From: Ignavibacteriota bacterium
Lineage (GTDB): Bacteria > Bacteroidota > Ignavibacteria > UBA10030
Length of the DNA stretch: 33,313 nucleotides
Reading direction: 5' to 3'
Assembly (NCBI GenBank): GCA_003819715.1
Contig: RPQN01000026.1
Span: 1 to 33,313, forward strand
In this document: one piece after another, positions 4,182-33,313 of the stretch
Numbering within the stretch: the first letter of the stretch is position 1
Layout of the letters: each line of letters starts with the position of its first letter
Notes under the pieces: generated by a model
What the model was told of the DNA's origin: nothing
Databases searched by the model: none
Seen by the model: only the letters and a program-made list of their open reading frames with translations
Made by a program: the position numbers and the translations under genes

Positions 4182-7100
4182 ATGAATAAAAAAATGAAAA
4201 AAATACTCAGTCATATAATATTTACAAAGAAAACCTGGTTTTTTGATTTTATGTGTCTCTTGATCCTTTTAACTCTTTTCCCACATTCATTATTTGCGCA
4301 AAAAGTTGATCCTATTACGTTATCATGGCTTGGCGGAAAATCACCGGGGATGGCGACTGGAGTAAGTTGGGGTGTTCCGCTGCCGGAAGGAACGATAAAG
4401 CCGTCAACAATTTTTTCGTTGAAAAATGCGCAAGGACAAGCAATGCCTGTACAGTCATGGCCGTTGGCATATTGGCCTGACGGTTCCTTAAAATGGGCAG
4501 GCTTCAGTACTGTGGTCGATACAAATTCCGGAGCGACTTTTCAACTTGAACGTGTAAAAACAGCTCACCATGATGCGATAAAAACAAAGGTTGAGTTAAT
4601 TGAAACCGGTGATGATGTGCTCGTGAATACCGGCGTTTTGCAATGCGATATTCCAAAGCACGATAAACAGCTCATTCGTTTCCTTAAAATGAATGGAAAA
4701 GAGATTTCCACAGGCGGACGATTGGTTTGCATTCTGCAGAACGGCCCAAACCGGGATGTTGGTGACCAACCAGCCAAAGAAATGTTCGCCGGTAATATTG
4801 AAAATGTGAAGATTGAACAAAGCGGACCGGTGAGAGCAGTTATTAAAGTTGAAGGCACGCACCTATCGGAATCAGGAAACAGAACCTGGTTGCCATTCAT
4901 TGTCCGGCTTTATTTTTACGCGGGCCAGCAATCGGTACGTTTAGTACATACGATTATTTATGATGGCGATCAGGAAAAGGATTTTATCCGTGGTTTAGGC
5001 GTGGTGTTTGATATTCCGATGGATGAGCAGTTGTACAACAGGAATGTTCGCTTTTCCGGAGAAAACGGCGGATTGTGGGATGAACCTAGCCAGCCGCTCA
5101 ACGGACGGTTTCCGCTTGACCGTCGCGAAGATCTCTATACCAAGCAACTGAGCGGCGGGCGTATTGCCGAGCGCAAAACCTTCTCAGAAAATCAACAATT
5201 CCTTATAAACCACTGGGCTAGCTGGAACGATTTTAAATTACAGCAATTGAATGCCGATGGTTTCCGGGTGCAAAAAAGAACGAATGATAAAAGCACATGG
5301 ATTGATGCCGGATACGGCAAACGTTCCGATGGTATGGCGTTTGTCGGCGATGTATCGGGTGGATTGGCGCTCTGCGTTCGTCATTTCTGGCAATCGTTTC
5401 CTTCGGCGCTGGAAATCCGAAATGTTAAAACAGATACCGCACAACTTAAAGCATGGCTTTGGTCACCGGAAGCTGAAGCGATGGACATGCGCCATTATGA
5501 CACAGTTGCCTTGGGACATAATCTCGACGCCAGTTACGAAGATGTTCAACCGGGATTCAGCACCGCAACAGGGGTAGGGCGCACATCCGAAATGCTGTTG
5601 TACGCTTCGAGCAATGTGCCGTCTTATGAAACGTTGAACAACATCGTGAAGCAAACTCAAGAGCCGCCTTTGCTTACTGCTTCCCCGGAATACCTTCACC
5701 GCATTTCGGTTTTCGGCGCCTGGAGTCTCCCCGACCAGAGCAAAAAAGGAAAGCGCTGGATAGAAAATCAACTCGACAAAGCATTTAAATACTACCAATT
5801 GGAAGTGGAGCAGCGGCATTGGTACGGATTCTGGAATTACGGAGATATACAACATACGTATGATCCCCAAAGGCACACCTGGAAATATGATATGGGAGGT
5901 TTTGCCTGGGACAACACGGAATTGATGCCCAACTTGTGGTTGTGGTACAGCTATTTGCGATCAGGGAATGAGGATATATTCCGTATGGCTGAAGCGATGA
6001 CACGGCATACCGGCGAAGTAGATGTCTACCACATGGGACGCTTTAAAGGATTGGGCTCTCGCCACAATGTTATTCATTGGGGCTGCGGCGCCAAAGAGGT
6101 TCGTATTTCACAGGCAGCTCTCGGTCGTTTCTATTATTACTTAACGACGGATGAACGCACCGGAGATTTGATGCGCGCTTCTGTGGATGCTTCCAATGAG
6201 GGAATAGGGAAGTTTGACCCGCTGCGTTTAATCATGGAAAAAAGTAAATACCCTACACATGCCCGAGTTGGTCCCGATTGGCTCGCGTTGGTTGGCAACT
6301 GGATGACGGAATGGGAACGGAGCGGCGATACACGCTATCGCGACAGAATAATGGCGGGGGTGAACAGTTTGTATGAAATGCCTTATGGATTTTTCTCCGG
6401 GAAGAACGCCGCCTTTGGATACGATCCGGCAACCTACAAATTGTATCGTCTCGATGAAAATGATATTGGTTCTGCCCACCTGTCTGTATTGATGGGAGGA
6501 CCGGAAGTGGCTTTCGAATTGAGTCATCTTCTTAAAAATAAAAAATGGGACAAACTTTGGATGCAATTCTGCAGAATATATGCGGCTCCAAAAGAAGAAA
6601 TTCAAAAAGAATTCGGCAAAGCGGTGGAATTGGGGAATCCCGGCTCCTGGTATGCACGTCTTCCCGCTTATTACGCCAACATAACCGGCGACACAGCGTA
6701 TGCGGCAAGAGCCTGGGATGAATTTCTTAATCCCCGGGCAAGATACTATCCCGATTTCACTCTGCAAAAATTTGAAGGAATTCAAAGCTTGCAGCCGGTG
6801 TATGAAGTGCGGGGAGCTTCCACCAACAATACGGCGCAGTGGTGTTTGAATGCAATTGAATTGCTGGAGCTGGTTGGAGACCAGCTTCCCGAAGACAATC
6901 CGCGATTCCAGAATGTGAAAGAACCTCAAATCAAAAATGACACCGGTTCAATTGGGCAGTATCAAAAAGGTGAACTGCTTTATCAGGATAATTTTGATCA
7001 GGCTATGAAAAACTGGGTCGTGGAAACGCCCGACTCCCCATTCTCAAAGGTTGCTGCTGAAAATGGAAAATTAATTATCGATGTCGCTCAAGGCGCAACA

Positions 7101-25271: not shown

Positions 25272-26095
25272 ATGGCTCAACATCCAATCCATTTAACTTT
25301 AATTTATCGTATTGTAATCATGTTGGTAGTTCTTTCAATTTCATGTCAAAGCCAGCAACCTGGGTGGCTTAAATTACCAACGAAACAAACCCCTGGAGCC
25401 GCTGGTGATGGATGTGTAACAGTGTTAATTCTTACGACCTGCACGCCGCCATGGAATCCTATTCCAAATCGGGATTGGGCGGGCTGGAAATCACACCGAT
25501 CTATGGAGTGCATGGGTATGAGGATACATTCATCAAATTCCTTTCTCCAGAGTGGATGAATAATCTCAATTACACCCTTCAGGAAGGAAAACGCCTCGAT
25601 TTGGGTGTCGACCTGGCAATGGCATCAGGCTGGCCGTTTGGGGGTCCCTGGGTTACACCCGATGATGCATGTAAGTATATAGTTGTGAAATCATATTTAT
25701 TGAAAGAAGGCGAACAACTTCAGGAAATAGTTGTAATGATACAGACACCACTGCTTCGTACAGTTCGGCTCAATAATCTCACCATGGAGCAGTTGAAATT
25801 TCCTATCAGTCTAAACGAAGACAGTTTACAGAACTGGGTAATTGATCAGGTTCGCTTTCCTAAAGCCATGCCCCTTCAGGTGCTGATAGCCTATTCAGAT
25901 AAAGGGGAAATTATCAATCTGACATCGAACGTTGACAGTGAGGGAAAGCTTCATTGGACTGCCCCGGCTGCTATATGGAAACTCTATGCCGTTTTCGAAG
26001 GCTGCAATGGCAAAATGGTTGAACGCGCCGGGCCGGGTGGCGAAGGTGATGTGATCGACCAGTTCTCGGCAAAATCAATGGATCGCTTACTACCT
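25272..26095 (+). pseudogene. GH106 alpha-L-rhamnosidase, broken and truncated
   Basis: The ATG at 25272 opens a signal peptide with a lipobox-like end (VVLSISC). The reading frame then changes: between about 25345 and 25393 the homology moves to another frame (ETNPWSRW from 25382), which shows a frameshift. In that frame a TGA at 25406-25408 stands where GH106 proteins have a Trp of the RWWW motif. Beyond it, GH106 sequence continues: GNSVN-like start, SGLGGLEITPIYGV, ASGWPFGGPWVTPDDA and GPGGEGDVIDQFS. At about 26079-26097 the family sequence ends abruptly and joins a DUF2938 remnant. About 250 residues of an expected 1000 or more remain, without the catalytic domain. Intact GH106 enzymes remove alpha-L-rhamnose, for example from rhamnogalacturonan oligosaccharides. 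Confidence 0.85.
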
Positions 26096-26369
26096 AATTG
26101 GCACATCGTTCGCAATCGCTTTCGTTGCATTCGTAGACAACAACTGGCTTCAGCATCCGACGCTGATTCCTGCAATCATCTTCGGTGTCGTTACAGTTTT
26201 GGCGCCGTTCTTGATCGTGCAATCATCACTTGGATTCGGAATTGCTGTATCAAAGTCACCAAATCCTTTGCAGGCAAGACTTCGTAGTTTGATGAATCAT
26301 ACTGCATTTAGCGTAGGTCTTTACTTTTTTGCGTTGTTAATCAACTGGTTGTTACCGGCATATACTTAA
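26079..26369 (+). pseudogene. C-terminal fragment of a DUF2938 family membrane protein
   Basis: In a frame different from the GH106 remnant, the sequence reads YYLIGTSFAIAFVAF, then PTLIPAIIFGVVTVLAPFLI, GFGIAVSKSPNPLQARLRSL and ends FALLINWLLPAYT with TAA at 26367-26369. This is the conserved C-terminal half of DUF2938, a family of small inner-membrane proteins of unknown function. There is no start codon or N-terminal half; the fragment begins within or just after the last GH106-like bases. It is not covered by a normal gene call because it has no start. Repeat copy C begins 43 bases after its stop. Confidence 0.78.
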
Positions 26370-27151: not shown

Positions 27152-28582
27152 ATGACTTTGGTAAAGCATAGGTCATTATCCCGAAGGAAATTTTACGTGA
27201 CCAATAATTATTTCGTGAAAACAGCAGTATATATTTTATGTGTAATAGGGGCATCATCCCGACTTTGCGCACAGGAGGGATGGAATCGCCTACCTCAAGT
27301 CCTCCAACGTATCACCTCTCCGGAATTTCCTCATCATGATTTCGATATCACAAGGTATGGAGCCATCGGTGATGGTCAAACCGATTGCAGTTTTGCTTTT
27401 AGAAAAGCGATAGAAACATGCAATGCTCAGGGTGGGGGTCGTGTCGTGGTGCCAAAGGGCACATTTATCACAGGCGCTCTTCATTTGAGAAGCAACGTGA
27501 ATCTCTACGTTTCGAAAGATGCTGTTATACAATTTATCGTCGATCCAAAAAAGTATTTGCCTGTAGTGTTCTGTCGATGGGAGGGCGTCGAATGTATGAA
27601 TTACTCTCCGTTGATCTATGCGTTTGAACAAGAGAACATCGCTATTACCGGTGAAGGTATTCTGGATGGACAGGCCGACGATGAACATTGGTGGAAGTGG
27701 AGGGGAAGGAAAGACGGAGGGAAGGATTGTCAAAACGAAGCACGCAACAAACTCTTCGAGATGGGAGAGAACAATGTACCGGTAACGGACCGAATCTTTG
27801 GCGAGGGTTCCTACCTTCGACCGAATTTCTTCGAGCCGTATCGCTGTAAGAATGTGCTGGTGCGGGGAGTGACATTCGTAAATTCACCCATGTGGTTCCT
27901 CCATCCCGTTTTATGCAAAAATGTATCCTTTCTGAATGTAACAATCGATGGTCTTGGTCCCAATAATGACGGCATCGACCCTGAATCCTGCACGGATGTG
28001 CTCGTGAAGAACTGCTTCCTGAATAATGGCGATGATTGCCTGGCAATCAAATCCGGAAGAAATAATGACGGTCGGCGTGTCAATATTCCCTGTGAAAATA
28101 TTGTCATACAAGGCTGCACAATGAAGAATGGCCACGGCGGTGTTTCCATTGGCAGCGAGATCAGCGGCAGTGTGCGCAACGTGTATATCGAAGATTGTAC
28201 GATGGATAGTCCAAATTTGGACCGGGCACTTCGCATCAAGACGAATGCAAAGCGCGGCGGTGTTGTAGAAAAAGTATATCTCAGAAACAGTAAGGTCGGA
28301 CAAGTCGCAGAAGCGGTGATCAAAGTTGATTTCTATTATGAAGAAGGTGAAACGGGTCATTTCAACCCTGTCGTTCGGGATATAGAAGTAAAGAATCTCG
28401 AATGCGACAAAAGCCGGTTCGCAGTATGGATTCGTGCGTTTGAAAAATCTCCGGCGACAAATATTACGATTGAAAATTGTTCGTTCCAGCATGTTGAAGA
28501 GAAAAACGTGTTAGACAATGTTCGGAACCTCAGTATGGTCGGTATAAAGATGTCGATGGCGGCGAAACCAGCAGGCAAATAA
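27152..28582 (+). CDS. GH28 polygalacturonase, complete canonical active site
   Basis: The frame starts with ATG at 27152. A GTG at 27197, eight bases after GAAGGA, is a credible alternative and would give a typical signal peptide (VTNNYFVKT to RLCAQ). Counted from 27152 the protein has 476 residues and a full beta-helix: DITRYGAIGDGQTD, then NNDGIDP (D273), NNGDDCLAIKSG (D294 and D295), GHGGVSIGSE (H328) and RIKT (361-364). These are the four conserved GH28 motifs, so it should hydrolyse alpha-1,4-galacturonan; the PxxFEPYRCKNV and RGGVVEKVYLRN segments resemble Bacteroidetes exo-polygalacturonases. No sorting domain is present, so a periplasmic site is likely. It is the first gene of the second operon, 51 bases before the receptor gene, and probably feeds galacturonate released from imported oligosaccharides. 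Confidence 0.93.
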   Translation: MTLVKHRSLSRRKFYVTNNYFVKTAVYILCVIGASSRLCAQEGWNRLPQVLQRITSPEFPHHDFDITRYGAIGDGQTDCSFAFRKAIETCNAQGGGRVVVPKGTFITGALHLRSNVNLYVSKDAVIQFIVDPKKYLPVVFCRWEGVECMNYSPLIYAFEQENIAITGEGILDGQADDEHWWKWRGRKDGGKDCQNEARNKLFEMGENNVPVTDRIFGEGSYLRPNFFEPYRCKNVLVRGVTFVNSPMWFLHPVLCKNVSFLNVTIDGLGPNNDGIDPESCTDVLVKNCFLNNGDDCLAIKSGRNNDGRRVNIPCENIVIQGCTMKNGHGGVSIGSEISGSVRNVYIEDCTMDSPNLDRALRIKTNAKRGGVVEKVYLRNSKVGQVAEAVIKVDFYYEEGETGHFNPVVRDIEVKNLECDKSRFAVWIRAFEKSPATNITIENCSFQHVEEKNVLDNVRNLSMVGIKMSMAAKPAGK

Positions 28583-28633: not shown

Positions 28634-31462
28634 ATGACAGATCACAACCTACCGCGAGCATGGTGTATCGGTGTGTTAATTCTTTTAACAATCAGCACGC
28701 TCTTTGCACAGAACGCCGGCAAGATCTCAGGCATAATAACCGATGCTCAAACCGGTGAACCGCTCATCGGTGCGAACATTCTTGTCTTGGGAACCAGTCT
28801 CGGCGCGTCGACGGATATCAATGGCAATTTCTTTATCCTCAATATCCCTGCCGGGAAGTACGATGTACAAGCTTCGATGGTGGGGTATGAAAAAGTAATT
28901 CAACGAGGTGTGATCGTGAACTCCGACCGAACCACCAATGCCGATTATAAACTGATGGCAACAGTACTGGAACAGGAAGCAATGATTGTTGAAGCAACAC
29001 GTCCGGATGTAGAACGGGAAAAGACATCGACGAGTGTCGTGATCCGGACGGAAGATGTGCAGCAGCTTGCAGGTATGCACACGGTCAGCGATGTCATCGG
29101 TCTTGCTGCGGATGTGATGGATGGCCATTTCCGCGGTGGTCGTTCGAATGAAGAATTATATGTGTTGCAGGGTATGGGCATTACCAATCCTCTGGATAAT
29201 TCTCGGGCGATCGTTCCTATCATGAGTGCTGTAGAGGAGGTGGAAGTGATCACAAGCGGTTTTGGAGCGCAATATGGCAATGCACAATCGGGTGTGATTA
29301 ATATAACAATGAAGGAAGGAAAATCGGATAAATGGAGGAGTTTTTCTGAAGTCCGGCTCCGCGCACCGGCACGTAAACATTTTGGGGCGAGTGTCTATGA
29401 TGTAAGTGCAAATAGATATTTACAAACGTATTCAAACATTGATGAATGGGCAAAACACTATGGTACCGTGATACAGACTCAGCTTGGTCAAGATTCGCTG
29501 TTAAAAATTGCCACTGCAAGGTTAAGCTGGCAGCAAGCCCGACGTGGGATGAACCGCACCTACGGGAATGAAATTGATAATTCAGTTGAAGTGTCCGCCG
29601 GGGGGCCGATCAGTGAAAATATGCGCATGTTCATTGCGCTCAGCAATAATACAGAGTATCCCACCTTCCCTGCCGAGCACCCGGATGCCAGTTATCAAGT
29701 GATGGGAAATATCGTAACCGATTTGGGCGGAAGTGCTTCTCTGAGATTGAGCGGCGCTTACGCACAATCGAAAACCAACGATATGGATGTGCAGGATTCA
29801 AATAACTTTTATCGTTTTTTGTGGAATCTGATATCGGGCATAGGGTATTCCAGTGAAACCAATCTTCAGTTGGGACTTCGATTTACACAGGCCCTGAGCC
29901 AGCGAACATTTTACGAAATAAAACTCAATATGCTCAGTTTAGATGACCAGTCAGGGAGTGGAGTGTATGCTCCAGACTCGGTGCTGAATTCGGTTATTGG
30001 AAACTGGTTTGGAAAATTAAATCCGCAGCCTGATAATTTTACAGAGGGGCCTAATAGCGGTGGATTGACGAGTCAAAATACAAAAACATATTCTTTGGAT
30101 GCTTCTCTGACAAGTCAAATTACCCACTCCCATTTACTGAACGCTGGACTTCAGGCGAACATCTACAATTTGAAAATAGAGAGATGGGGCAAACGCGGTA
30201 TCACGGGAAACGTACGGCCATATTTTATGGGATATAAAGCGAATCCGATAGAAGTAAGCTTGTTTATTCAGGATAAAATGGAATTCCAGGGGATGATTGC
30301 AAATATCGGTATTCGGTATGATCTCTGGAATCAAAACAGAATGTATCATGGAGATCCGTTTACGAATCAAATGTCTGATACAGGAAAAGTGAAATCTCCC
30401 ATTCTCAGCAATCTTCAACCAAGAATTGGGATATCATTCCCTGTGTCAGTAACGACGGTCTTCCATCTGAATTATGGCTCCTTTATGCAGCGTCCATCTT
30501 TCCAATATATGTATAGTTATCAACCAGACAATGCCGCTCCAGGAACAGGTACATTTGGCAACCCTTCTTTGAGAGCACAGGTAACCTATATGTATGATGT
30601 TGGTGTCACGCAGGGATTAGGCGAAGGATTTACATTCGATGCGAGCGGTTATTATAAAAATGTGAAAGACCAGGTCGAACAGGCGATTTATTATTTTAAT
30701 TACAGTTACTCTTCTTCAGGAGTTCCCATTCCCGGCGCCACGTACACGACGTATATCAATCGAGACTATGCCGATATCCGTGGATTTCGCTTCGCTCTTT
30801 CAAAAAGAAAAGGAAATTTCACGGGGGATATCAACTATCAATATAGTGTTGCCACCGGCAAGAGTGCCGGTGTTGGCAATGCAATTCCAGTCATTGGAAT
30901 AGAGGGTGAGGATAAGAATAATCCATTGAACACCGTCCCCAAGAAAGACGTTCTTTTAAATTTTGATAGGACGCATAATCTTGTTGTCAATCTTGGATAT
31001 CATACTGATGAAAACTGGGGGGTTAAAATAGGGAATTCATATCCACTCGGTAATATCACGTTTGCAGTAAGCTCGCGTGCAAGTAGCGGCAGGCCATATA
31101 CATATAATCCGGTGGGGAATTCATCAGGCGAATCTGCCACAATGAATATGCGCATGCCCGCAGAATATAACACGAATATAAAACTCACAAAAAGAATGAA
31201 ATATTTCTTAGGGACATCGGCATCGATCTATATTGAAGTATTTAATCTTTTTGATAATAAAAAATTGAACTACGATTATATCACCGGTCTTACTTCGGCA
31301 TATTTAACCGATTACCAATCCAAGCCAATCGGTGCACCCGACGGAATACTCTATAACGATGGGACGATTAAAGGGAACATGCAATACGGGTTCGATCATT
31401 CTTTCGTGTTGTATGCAAACGAACCACGTTCGTTCACATTGGGTATCACCGTTGACTTTTAA
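28634..31462 (+). CDS. TonB-dependent outer-membrane receptor with carboxypeptidase-like N-terminal domain
   Basis: The ATG follows AAGGAG. The 942-residue protein has a signal peptide (about 1-26, ending LFAQ), a CarboxypepD_reg-like domain (about 30-115: GKISGIITDAQTGEPLIGANILVLGT, PAGKYDVQASMVGYEK), a plug domain (about 130-240: VVIRTEDVQQLAGM, LQGMGITNPL, VEEVEVITSGFGAQYGNAQSGVINI) and a beta-barrel to the end. It ends in an aromatic residue after alternating strands (FTLGITVDF), as outer-membrane barrels do. It should import ligands using TonB energy; linkage to GH28 suggests pectic oligosaccharides. It has the layout of SusC-like receptors but is slightly short, and no SusD gene follows. 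Instead, a large secreted protein starts 24 bases downstream. The ligand is inferred from neighbours only. Confidence 0.9.
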   Translation: MTDHNLPRAWCIGVLILLTISTLFAQNAGKISGIITDAQTGEPLIGANILVLGTSLGASTDINGNFFILNIPAGKYDVQASMVGYEKVIQRGVIVNSDRTTNADYKLMATVLEQEAMIVEATRPDVEREKTSTSVVIRTEDVQQLAGMHTVSDVIGLAADVMDGHFRGGRSNEELYVLQGMGITNPLDNSRAIVPIMSAVEEVEVITSGFGAQYGNAQSGVINITMKEGKSDKWRSFSEVRLRAPARKHFGASVYDVSANRYLQTYSNIDEWAKHYGTVIQTQLGQDSLLKIATARLSWQQARRGMNRTYGNEIDNSVEVSAGGPISENMRMFIALSNNTEYPTFPAEHPDASYQVMGNIVTDLGGSASLRLSGAYAQSKTNDMDVQDSNNFYRFLWNLISGIGYSSETNLQLGLRFTQALSQRTFYEIKLNMLSLDDQSGSGVYAPDSVLNSVIGNWFGKLNPQPDNFTEGPNSGGLTSQNTKTYSLDASLTSQITHSHLLNAGLQANIYNLKIERWGKRGITGNVRPYFMGYKANPIEVSLFIQDKMEFQGMIANIGIRYDLWNQNRMYHGDPFTNQMSDTGKVKSPILSNLQPRIGISFPVSVTTVFHLNYGSFMQRPSFQYMYSYQPDNAAPGTGTFGNPSLRAQVTYMYDVGVTQGLGEGFTFDASGYYKNVKDQVEQAIYYFNYSYSSSGVPIPGATYTTYINRDYADIRGFRFALSKRKGNFTGDINYQYSVATGKSAGVGNAIPVIGIEGEDKNNPLNTVPKKDVLLNFDRTHNLVVNLGYHTDENWGVKIGNSYPLGNITFAVSSRASSGRPYTYNPVGNSSGESATMNMRMPAEYNTNIKLTKRMKYFLGTSASIYIEVFNLFDNKKLNYDYITGLTSAYLTDYQSKPIGAPDGILYNDGTIKGNMQYGFDHSFVLYANEPRSFTLGITVDF

Positions 31463-31486
31463 CCATTTAACTAAACGGGAAAAGTT

Positions 31487-33313
31487 ATGAACTCAGGAGC
31501 TAAAATTATTTTCATTCTTCTTGTATCATCTTCAATAGCTCTCGGTCAATTGACGAGGGATTATAAAACCCATACGCGGGGGATGCTCTGGGAAACAGTC
31601 TTTAATACAGGAGAAATTGGAAGAACATACGATGACGGTGAAGCAGGAAGCCGTCCGGAATTCCATGCGATGGAATGGCCGGGAAATTCTGCTTTTAAAC
31701 TTGGAGATCAAAAATTCGATGGCTTTTACAATTCCTTTGGCGGCGGAATATGGATAGCAGGTGATACAGGAAAGGCAGGGAATCGACAATATTTTAAACT
31801 CTCCAATGGCGGTGTGGTGGAATGTGGAATGGTTTCCGATAACAATGGAAGGCCAACGACGGTCGAAGGGATTTTTAGCTATCCCATCTCCATTGAGAAG
31901 ACCACAAATTATCCTTTAAACGAGGATGGTTCGATTAATTCAGGTTACAAACCAAATGAAGCGGAAGAAATTATCAAAGCAAGCTGGGATACTCCCATTG
32001 GTATAACGGTATATCGTACCAGCCGTGCATGGAGCTTCCCCGACTTTGATGATTTCATAATCTATGAATATGAATTGGTCAATACCGGCAACAGGCTGCC
32101 GGCAGGTTCCTCGTATGATACATTATATGAAGCAACGGTGACGTTTGCGTATGCGGTCTGCCCCTCGATGGTTGCCTATCAACGGCAATATGGAAGGTGG
32201 TCGTCCGGTGATATGAACAGTGAGGATATGTACGGGCGGTTTGACCTGAAGCGCTGGTTGTGGTACGGTCATAACCGGACCGGCAAACCCGATCCGACAT
32301 ATTTTTCACAATGGGCAAGTACAGGTGAAAACGGAGGCGGACTCACAGGCCCGGCATCTGTCGGATTTATGCCGTTGTATTATGACCGCGCCCATCTTGC
32401 AAGATACGCGACAATTCCAAAGACTCAATTCTATGTGAACACCACCGACGGTATCGACGATAACAATTATATTTGGGATGCATACATCGGTGGCAGGCCT
32501 GCGGCAAGTGCACGATTAAAACAACCTTATCTCACGCGAACGGACAATACAAATTTTCAGCCGGAAAAAGCTGCAGATTGGCTTAATGGAAAACTCTCGC
32601 GAAAAACACAGCCGTTTATTCCAGGCAGACTCCAATTAAAAAATCAGACCATCCAAGACACGAGCAAAATTGGATGGAATTGGATTGGACGGGCACAAAT
32701 GGTTGTCACACAGGCATATACACAGGCTTGTTCAAAAGCGTACGGTTTCGGCCCTTATGTTATACCGCCACACGATACCGTTCGGTTTGCAATTGCTGAA
32801 GTAGCAGGGTATGGTCCTGGTGTTGCATCCGACAGTCTCTATGAAGATTTTGGCGGAGGAACAGGAGATACACCTGTTGAACCGGGACCATTTTTCCATC
32901 CAGTTCCAAGCTGGTATAATGAAATTTCATATCCCTATCTCAATAAAACTGCCGGATTAAGTATGGGAAGTACCTATTTGCAGACTAATCCGCTTCCTTC
33001 ATATGTGAATTCGAATGTCATCTCAATGCGTCAGGTTGCCGATCGGGCAATTCAGATGTATAAAGGTGGCTCGGTAATTAAATATGATACAATTAAAAAT
33101 TATGATCCGCGGTTCAATCCTGCAAGAGGGGTGTATGCTCCTGCGACTATCCCATGTCCCTCGCCTGTGACTCAGGTTACCGTAGAAAAAGATTGTTTAA
33201 CGCGGATTACATGGGGGCCCGATGTGGAGTCTCTGACGAGATCGACCACCGGGTTTACCAATATGCATGCACCGTTGAGCTATTATCAGGTGCTTCGTTC
33301 GGTGAGTGCGATC
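31487..33313 (+). CDS. Large secreted protein paired with the TonB receptor (3' end outside window)
   Basis: The reading frame is open from the ATG at 31487 to the window edge (609 codons). It has a signal peptide (about 1-20: KIIFILLVSSSIALG). The mature part begins HTRGMLWETVFNTGEIGRTYDDGEAG and continues with WPGNSAF, GGGIWIAGD, a WxFPDFDDFIIYEYELVNTG segment and many aromatic residues. From about residue 560 (PSPVTQVTVEKDCLTRITW) an FN3-like domain starts; the rest is missing. It is not SusD: no tetratricopeptide-like helices or lipobox are present. The family seems to be one seen behind TonB receptors in Ignavibacteria-like genomes, but that memory is not checked. Position suggests a surface ligand binder or processing partner for the receptor. 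A C-terminal sorting domain may exist beyond the window. Confidence 0.75.
   Translation, partial: MNSGAKIIFILLVSSSIALGQLTRDYKTHTRGMLWETVFNTGEIGRTYDDGEAGSRPEFHAMEWPGNSAFKLGDQKFDGFYNSFGGGIWIAGDTGKAGNRQYFKLSNGGVVECGMVSDNNGRPTTVEGIFSYPISIEKTTNYPLNEDGSINSGYKPNEAEEIIKASWDTPIGITVYRTSRAWSFPDFDDFIIYEYELVNTGNRLPAGSSYDTLYEATVTFAYAVCPSMVAYQRQYGRWSSGDMNSEDMYGRFDLKRWLWYGHNRTGKPDPTYFSQWASTGENGGGLTGPASVGFMPLYYDRAHLARYATIPKTQFYVNTTDGIDDNNYIWDAYIGGRPAASARLKQPYLTRTDNTNFQPEKAADWLNGKLSRKTQPFIPGRLQLKNQTIQDTSKIGWNWIGRAQMVVTQAYTQACSKAYGFGPYVIPPHDTVRFAIAEVAGYGPGVASDSLYEDFGGGTGDTPVEPGPFFHPVPSWYNEISYPYLNKTAGLSMGSTYLQTNPLPSYVNSNVISMRQVADRAIQMYKGGSVIKYDTIKNYDPRFNPARGVYAPATIPCPSPVTQVTVEKDCLTRITWGPDVESLTRSTTGFTNMHAPLSYYQVLRSVSAI

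Follow-up and report, generated by a model that had tools for sequence, protein, structure and literature searches.

The analysed window, a stretch of 33,313 nucleotides that makes up an entire contig (C49) of a draft genome totalling 4.03 Mb over 396 contigs, carries one copy of a recurring cassette in which a TonB-dependent receptor is followed by a large surface protein, hereafter the partner, and by a barrel of the PorV/PorQ family. In cassettes of the pectin/uronate type a BamG/FadL-like barrel is present as a fourth gene. On balance we favour a reading of the cassette as a SusCD-like uptake unit, in which a surface protein that binds glycans would leave the cell through the type IX secretion system (T9SS) and be anchored on a PorV-like barrel of its own, where SusD is anchored by a lipid. 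The parts belong to known families or folds, their combination was without match in the searchable literature, and no description of a receptor-PorV cassette or of a SusD-less system in these lineages was found in the open-licence literature.

The receptor gene (28634..31462, + strand) encodes 942 amino acids comprising a signal peptide, a CarboxypepD-like domain at residues 31–117, a plug and a barrel. The N-terminal domain, placed before the plug, matched CarbopepD_reg_2 (2.3e-17, 63 bits against a cut-off of 32), and the match to the Plug domain was weak (0.045). A receptor profile aligned across plug and barrel with solved TonB receptors, including the colicin I receptor (5e-22), a SusC homolog (5e-19) and the PhuR barrel (1e-18), and this likeness places the protein among the TonB-dependent receptors. 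The SusC-like layout described in the earlier sequence-only reading holds for the order of CarboxypepD domain, plug and barrel but does not extend to the SusC/RagA family, for which model TIGR04056 gave 42 bits against a cut-off of 368.25. Judged by sequence, the receptor is SusC-like in its N-terminal part only. The nearest paralogues were located on contigs C62 and C65, with 51–52% identity.

Directly 5′ of the receptor lies a GH28 polygalacturonase-like gene (27152..28582, + strand, GH28 3e-36), which is outside the conserved cassette; the receptor on C65 is likewise preceded by a GH28-like protein, recognised by eye from sequence similarity. The window also contains an RGL11 lyase, a PcRGLX-type lyase, a second GH28, a GH88, a GH2, a DUF4450 protein and a GH106 fragment, and the setting is a rhamnogalacturonan/pectin locus, as had been proposed. 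The GH106 rhamnosidase match at 25412-26287 reaches no further than the first part of the 743-position model, no long frame follows it until 27152, and the gene is probably broken or frameshifted. A scan for promoters and terminators gave no usable signal.

The partner gene (31487..33313, + strand) is separated from the receptor by 24 bp (31463..31486, + strand), with comparable short gaps or overlaps in relatives, and the positions, lengths and spacing given earlier for both frames were confirmed. The frame is open at the contig end, where the first 609 of 774 residues are visible. The final 20 bases of the window are identical to the first 20 bases on the minus strand of contig C169, where the frame continues; the join rests on this 20-bp overlap and on in-frame homology, the reading frame staying in register with the paralogues on C62 and C65. 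The completed protein has 774 amino acids, and the FN3-like end noted from the visible part is a real domain that carries on into C169. Beyond it, on the minus strand of C169 (L196), are the third gene (5751-7022) and the fourth gene (4282-5748). The third gene belongs to the PorV/PorQ family (NF033709, 5e-56, 190.6 bits against a cut-off of 90), and a profile of this family matched solved PorV at 5e-28. It is neither canonical PorV nor canonical PorQ by the models NF033710 (75 of 250 bits) and NF033711 (63 of 220 bits). The fourth gene resembles BamG/FadL barrels (NF053685, 1.6e-17) and, at 63.7 of the 250 bits required, falls outside BamG itself. Past both barrels are a protein whose T9SS tail is of the ordinary type and a LacI-type regulator. 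The same four-gene order was found on C65 and C62. A SusD gene just past the contig end is ruled out, as the joined contig carries the two barrels there.

The partner is not SusD, as the sequence-only reading had stated: the SusD/RagB family PF07980 was absent from it, and the visible part matched nothing in Pfam or NCBIfam and no PDB sequence to a meaningful degree. No known non-uptake family matches the whole protein. The conserved N-terminal motif suggested earlier was recovered from 33 homologues with the consensus RGMLHETVYNTGEIGR. The visible part consists of a signal peptide that lacks a lipobox, a predicted super-beta-sandwich at approximately residues 21–570 and the start of FN3, so that the domain order of the complete protein is super-beta-sandwich, FN3 and a T9SS C-terminal domain. 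The AF2 model of residues 21–570 had a pTM of 0.88 and a pLDDT of 78.6, and agreed with the model of a full-length homologue, L091 (pTM 0.79). When compared with known structures, the N-terminal domain matched N-terminal domains of the GH15/GH94/GH116 type with VIA Z values of 14–18.5, the top matches (Z 16–18.5) extending over approximately 240–275 residues at 3.6–4.4 Å and approximately 10% identity. The models therefore suggest the super-beta-sandwich found at the N-terminus of GH15, GH94, GH116 and related enzymes; in the partner, no region corresponds to their catalytic alpha/alpha barrel. The models are beta-rich, where the SusD fold is alpha-helical and of the TPR type, and SusD was not among the fold matches, an absence which by itself is no proof. 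The wider family has very few invariant positions (N, G, G, W, Y), and the pectin-type partners keep invariant charged residues, for example an AEE motif. Among 105 partners none had a convincing lipobox, the four pattern matches all lying inside the hydrophobic core.

The C-terminal tail of the completed partner matched the C-terminus of PorZ at 5e-7 and marginally exceeded the cut-off of the type A model TIGR04183 (23.1 bits against 23); several relatives fell below that cut-off. The tail of L091 superposed on the C-terminal domain of PorZ (5m11) with a Z of 11.6 and 2.3 Å over 89 residues at 24% identity. Seven control cargo proteins and enzymes from similar loci all preferred TIGR04183 (36 to 51 bits), and none matched PorZ. 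Measured from the VPNPF motif, the median tail length was 96 residues for partners (n = 99) compared to 79 for ordinary cargo (n = 78), and the PorU tail of the same genome measures 92 residues. Published lengths are 67–88 residues for cleaved tails and 96 and 108 for the retained tails of PorZ and PorU (PMC11285876). The long tail and the PorZ-like sequence and fold correspond to a C-terminal domain of the retained PorZ/PorU kind. These differences from cargo, in tail type for the seven controls and in tail length for the 78, make it less likely that the partner is a standard T9SS cargo whose tail is released. The preference for PorZ is common without being universal: the ordinary tail model gave the higher score for L104, L122, L097 and L042, and neither model matched a few of the partners. 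An extra beta-hairpin after the fifth strand, shared by PorZ and PorU, was not apparent among the strands listed for the L091 model; this hairpin has been termed functionally not relevant (PMC11285876). The idea of a protein in the place of SusD stands as far as a beta-rich surface protein is concerned, but its T9SS C-terminal domain makes it probable that the partner is anchored in a different manner from the SusD lipoprotein.

Profile searches of the source genome revealed 13 receptor-partner pairs, with a PorV-family gene next in all 11 for which downstream DNA was visible. A wider profile added genes on C71, C131 and C58 as well as contig-end pieces on C252, C192 and C169; the contig-end pieces have PorV next, and the C71 partner has it upstream. 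Relatives were examined in two sets that have seven contigs in common. The first comprised 60 stretches picked by partner matches, in which the receptor was directly 5′ of the partner in 57 of 58 assessable cases and PorV was 3′ in 57 of 59, including three with one small gene intervening. The second comprised 34 named loci from Ignavibacteria, Rhodothermales, Marinimicrobia, KSB1 and Melioribacteraceae, obtained by a search with a three-member alignment, and gave a receptor 5′ in 33/33, PorV 3′ in 30/30 and the fourth barrel in 28/29 assessable loci; elsewhere this barrel was observed only in cassettes of the pectin/uronate type. These neighbour counts, in the genome and in its relatives, place the arrangement far beyond chance and rule out a one-off pairing. 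The pairing of a receptor with a beta-rich, non-SusD partner that had been put forward as possibly recurrent does recur, in a unit of at least three genes instead of two. The PorV-family gene, the T9SS tail and the super-beta-sandwich fold were all outside the view of the sequence-only reading.

The wide partner family is present in nearly all genomes of the order, and the neighbours of the cassettes include pectin, alginate/heparinase-type or beta-helix enzymes, with pectin-type copies adjoining uronate-polysaccharide enzymes in several lineages. Within the Rhodothermales loci L101-L113, a heparinase-II/III-like protein and a beta-helix protein follow the cassette (examined in L101), and these neighbours suggest a uronate polysaccharide other than pectin. 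Several variants of the arrangement were also observed. Partner-family genes at L192 (C131, 4345-7698) and L193 (C58, 6638-8767) have neither a receptor nor a PorV-family gene adjacent, the L161 partner has no receptor directly upstream, and L047:2955-6847 (C92) lacks a partner, the PorV-family gene there coming straight after a receptor of the cassette type. A sub-type formed by L007, L153, L160 and L166 has a small gene, probably encoding a lipoprotein, between partner and PorV; in L007 the PorV gene is followed by an IPT/TIG-containing lipoprotein, a T9SS-tail protein and a symporter-like gene, and similarly in some of the other three. A small contig, L198 (C307), contains a BNR-repeat protein with a PorZ-like tail, then two PorV-family genes, and no receptor.

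Co-divergence was measured across 11 paralogous cassettes. Pairwise distances between partners correlated with those between receptors and with those between PorV-like proteins (r 0.93 in both cases, Mantel p 2e-4). When the closest pair was left out the coefficients were 0.91 and 0.89 respectively, so a correlation due to one close paralogue pair is ruled out, and because all 11 cassettes come from a single genome species history is not the cause. As the distances of the three proteins correlate, the cassettes appear to duplicate and diverge as units.

No SusD match was obtained in the whole source genome, and relatives of the same family have 0–3 each. Among 296 genomes of the phylum, with up to seven SusD candidates scored per genome, the partner family was found in 1 of the 70 with at least seven SusD matches compared to 108 of the 226 others, a contrast uncorrected for phylogeny. 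Partner and SusD occur together in many genomes with few SusD matches. The contrast fits replacement, and in view of the seven-candidate scoring and the uncorrected phylogeny it is not proof.

The cassette shares features with several types of known system. Like SusC/SusD of the Bacteroidota it lies in a polysaccharide locus and combines a CarboxypepD-TonB receptor with a large surface protein encoded next. The receptor, however, is far from the SusC family model, and the partner differs from SusD in being beta-rich, outside PF07980 and not a lipoprotein, and in having a T9SS tail and a PorV-like barrel alongside. By the membership tests applied the cassette is not a SusC/SusD system, although it probably works like one. 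To our knowledge no PorV-like gene or T9SS tail forms part of the BtuB-BtuG importer of vitamin B12. That importer also pairs a TonB receptor with a non-SusD surface protein, which acts as a lid (PMC10404256); BtuG is a lipoprotein, whereas the partner is not. PorU:PorV and PorZ:PorQ are known surface-anchoring pairs of the T9SS attachment complex (PMC5562754) and offer the likeness of a surface protein whose retained C-terminal domain is held by a barrel, a retention that would have to apply to the partner also. Those pairs process T9SS cargo, whereas the pair in the cassette goes together with sugar enzymes and a TonB receptor. For certain T9SS cargoes the gene of a dedicated barrel lies alongside, and in SprB-SprF the cargo gene is directly followed by that of its own outer-membrane barrel (PMC12618676). 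SprB-SprF has a type B tail, a barrel of the PorP/SprF family and no receptor, in contrast to the PorZ-like tail and PorV family of the cassette.

In the reading that we favour, the signal peptide would take the partner across the inner membrane and the T9SS translocon, SprA, would take it across the outer membrane. The genome contains SprA and an adjacent gene pair encoding a PorU-tail protein and PorV. The C-terminal domain would then remain uncut and docked on the neighbouring PorV-like barrel, resembling PorU on PorV and PorZ on PorQ, and the super-beta-sandwich would sit over or beside the receptor. There it may bind rhamnogalacturonan or uronate oligosaccharides and hand them to the TonB-driven receptor, possibly with the movement of a lid, so doing the job that SusD performs as a lipoprotein. 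Counting against this reading are the partner genes on C131 and C58 and at L161 that lack a receptor directly upstream, the upstream PorV on C71, the tails that fit the ordinary model better than PorZ, and the hairpin not apparent in the L091 model.

Three other explanations were weighed. The PorV-like barrel may be a passing shuttle only, dedicated to a partner that acts, free or attached to LPS, as an enzyme or a glycan-binding protein, with the receptor working alone and the operon reflecting co-regulation for one substrate. PorV does shuttle type A tails, SprF-like barrels serve as dedicated shuttles for the type B cargo encoded next to them (PMC5562754, PMC12618676), and the window tail just reaches the type A cut-off. 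Ordinary cargo of the same loci, however, has a shorter and different tail and no barrel gene of its own, and the receptor, a constant neighbour, co-diverges with the partner as tightly as the barrel does; we regard this explanation as unlikely. The partner might instead be an enzyme placed at the mouth of the receptor, where its super-beta-sandwich would trim or isomerise the glycan, and both the nearest folds, which belong to glycoside hydrolases and phosphorylases, and the invariant charged residues of the pectin-type members would suit such a role. The matching part, however, is the N-terminal domain, which in GH94 and GH15 enzymes is not the catalytic domain. With the catalytic barrel region missing, no family model with an assigned reaction matching the domain and so few positions invariant family-wide, an enzymatic partner seems quite improbable. 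Conversely, the predicted fold held in common with sugar enzymes does not show that the partner binds sugar.

The spread of the family through nearly all genomes of the order, beside varied neighbours, leaves some room for many copies to import or sense compounds other than glycans, the link to pectin being peculiar to the copy in the window. This is rather unlikely, given that pectin-type copies adjoin uronate-polysaccharide enzymes in more than one lineage and that the L007-type copy adjoins a sugar-symporter-like gene and a CBM9-like protein, both recognised from the translations by eye and not by a family match.

The evidence leaves evenly poised the broader proposal that Ignavibacteria, Rhodothermales, Marinimicrobia and KSB1, outside the SusD-rich Bacteroidota, have a separate class of TonB uptake system in which a T9SS-exported, PorV-held super-beta-sandwich replaces SusD, with many copies per genome directed at different substrates. 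If true, this would explain glycan uptake in polysaccharide degraders that have few or no SusD genes, would assign a function to the numerous PorV/PorQ-family genes of such genomes, and would tie type IX secretion directly to nutrient uptake. The combination of receptor, partner and PorV would also provide a simple genomic marker for loci in metagenomes that are missed by searches based on SusC/SusD.
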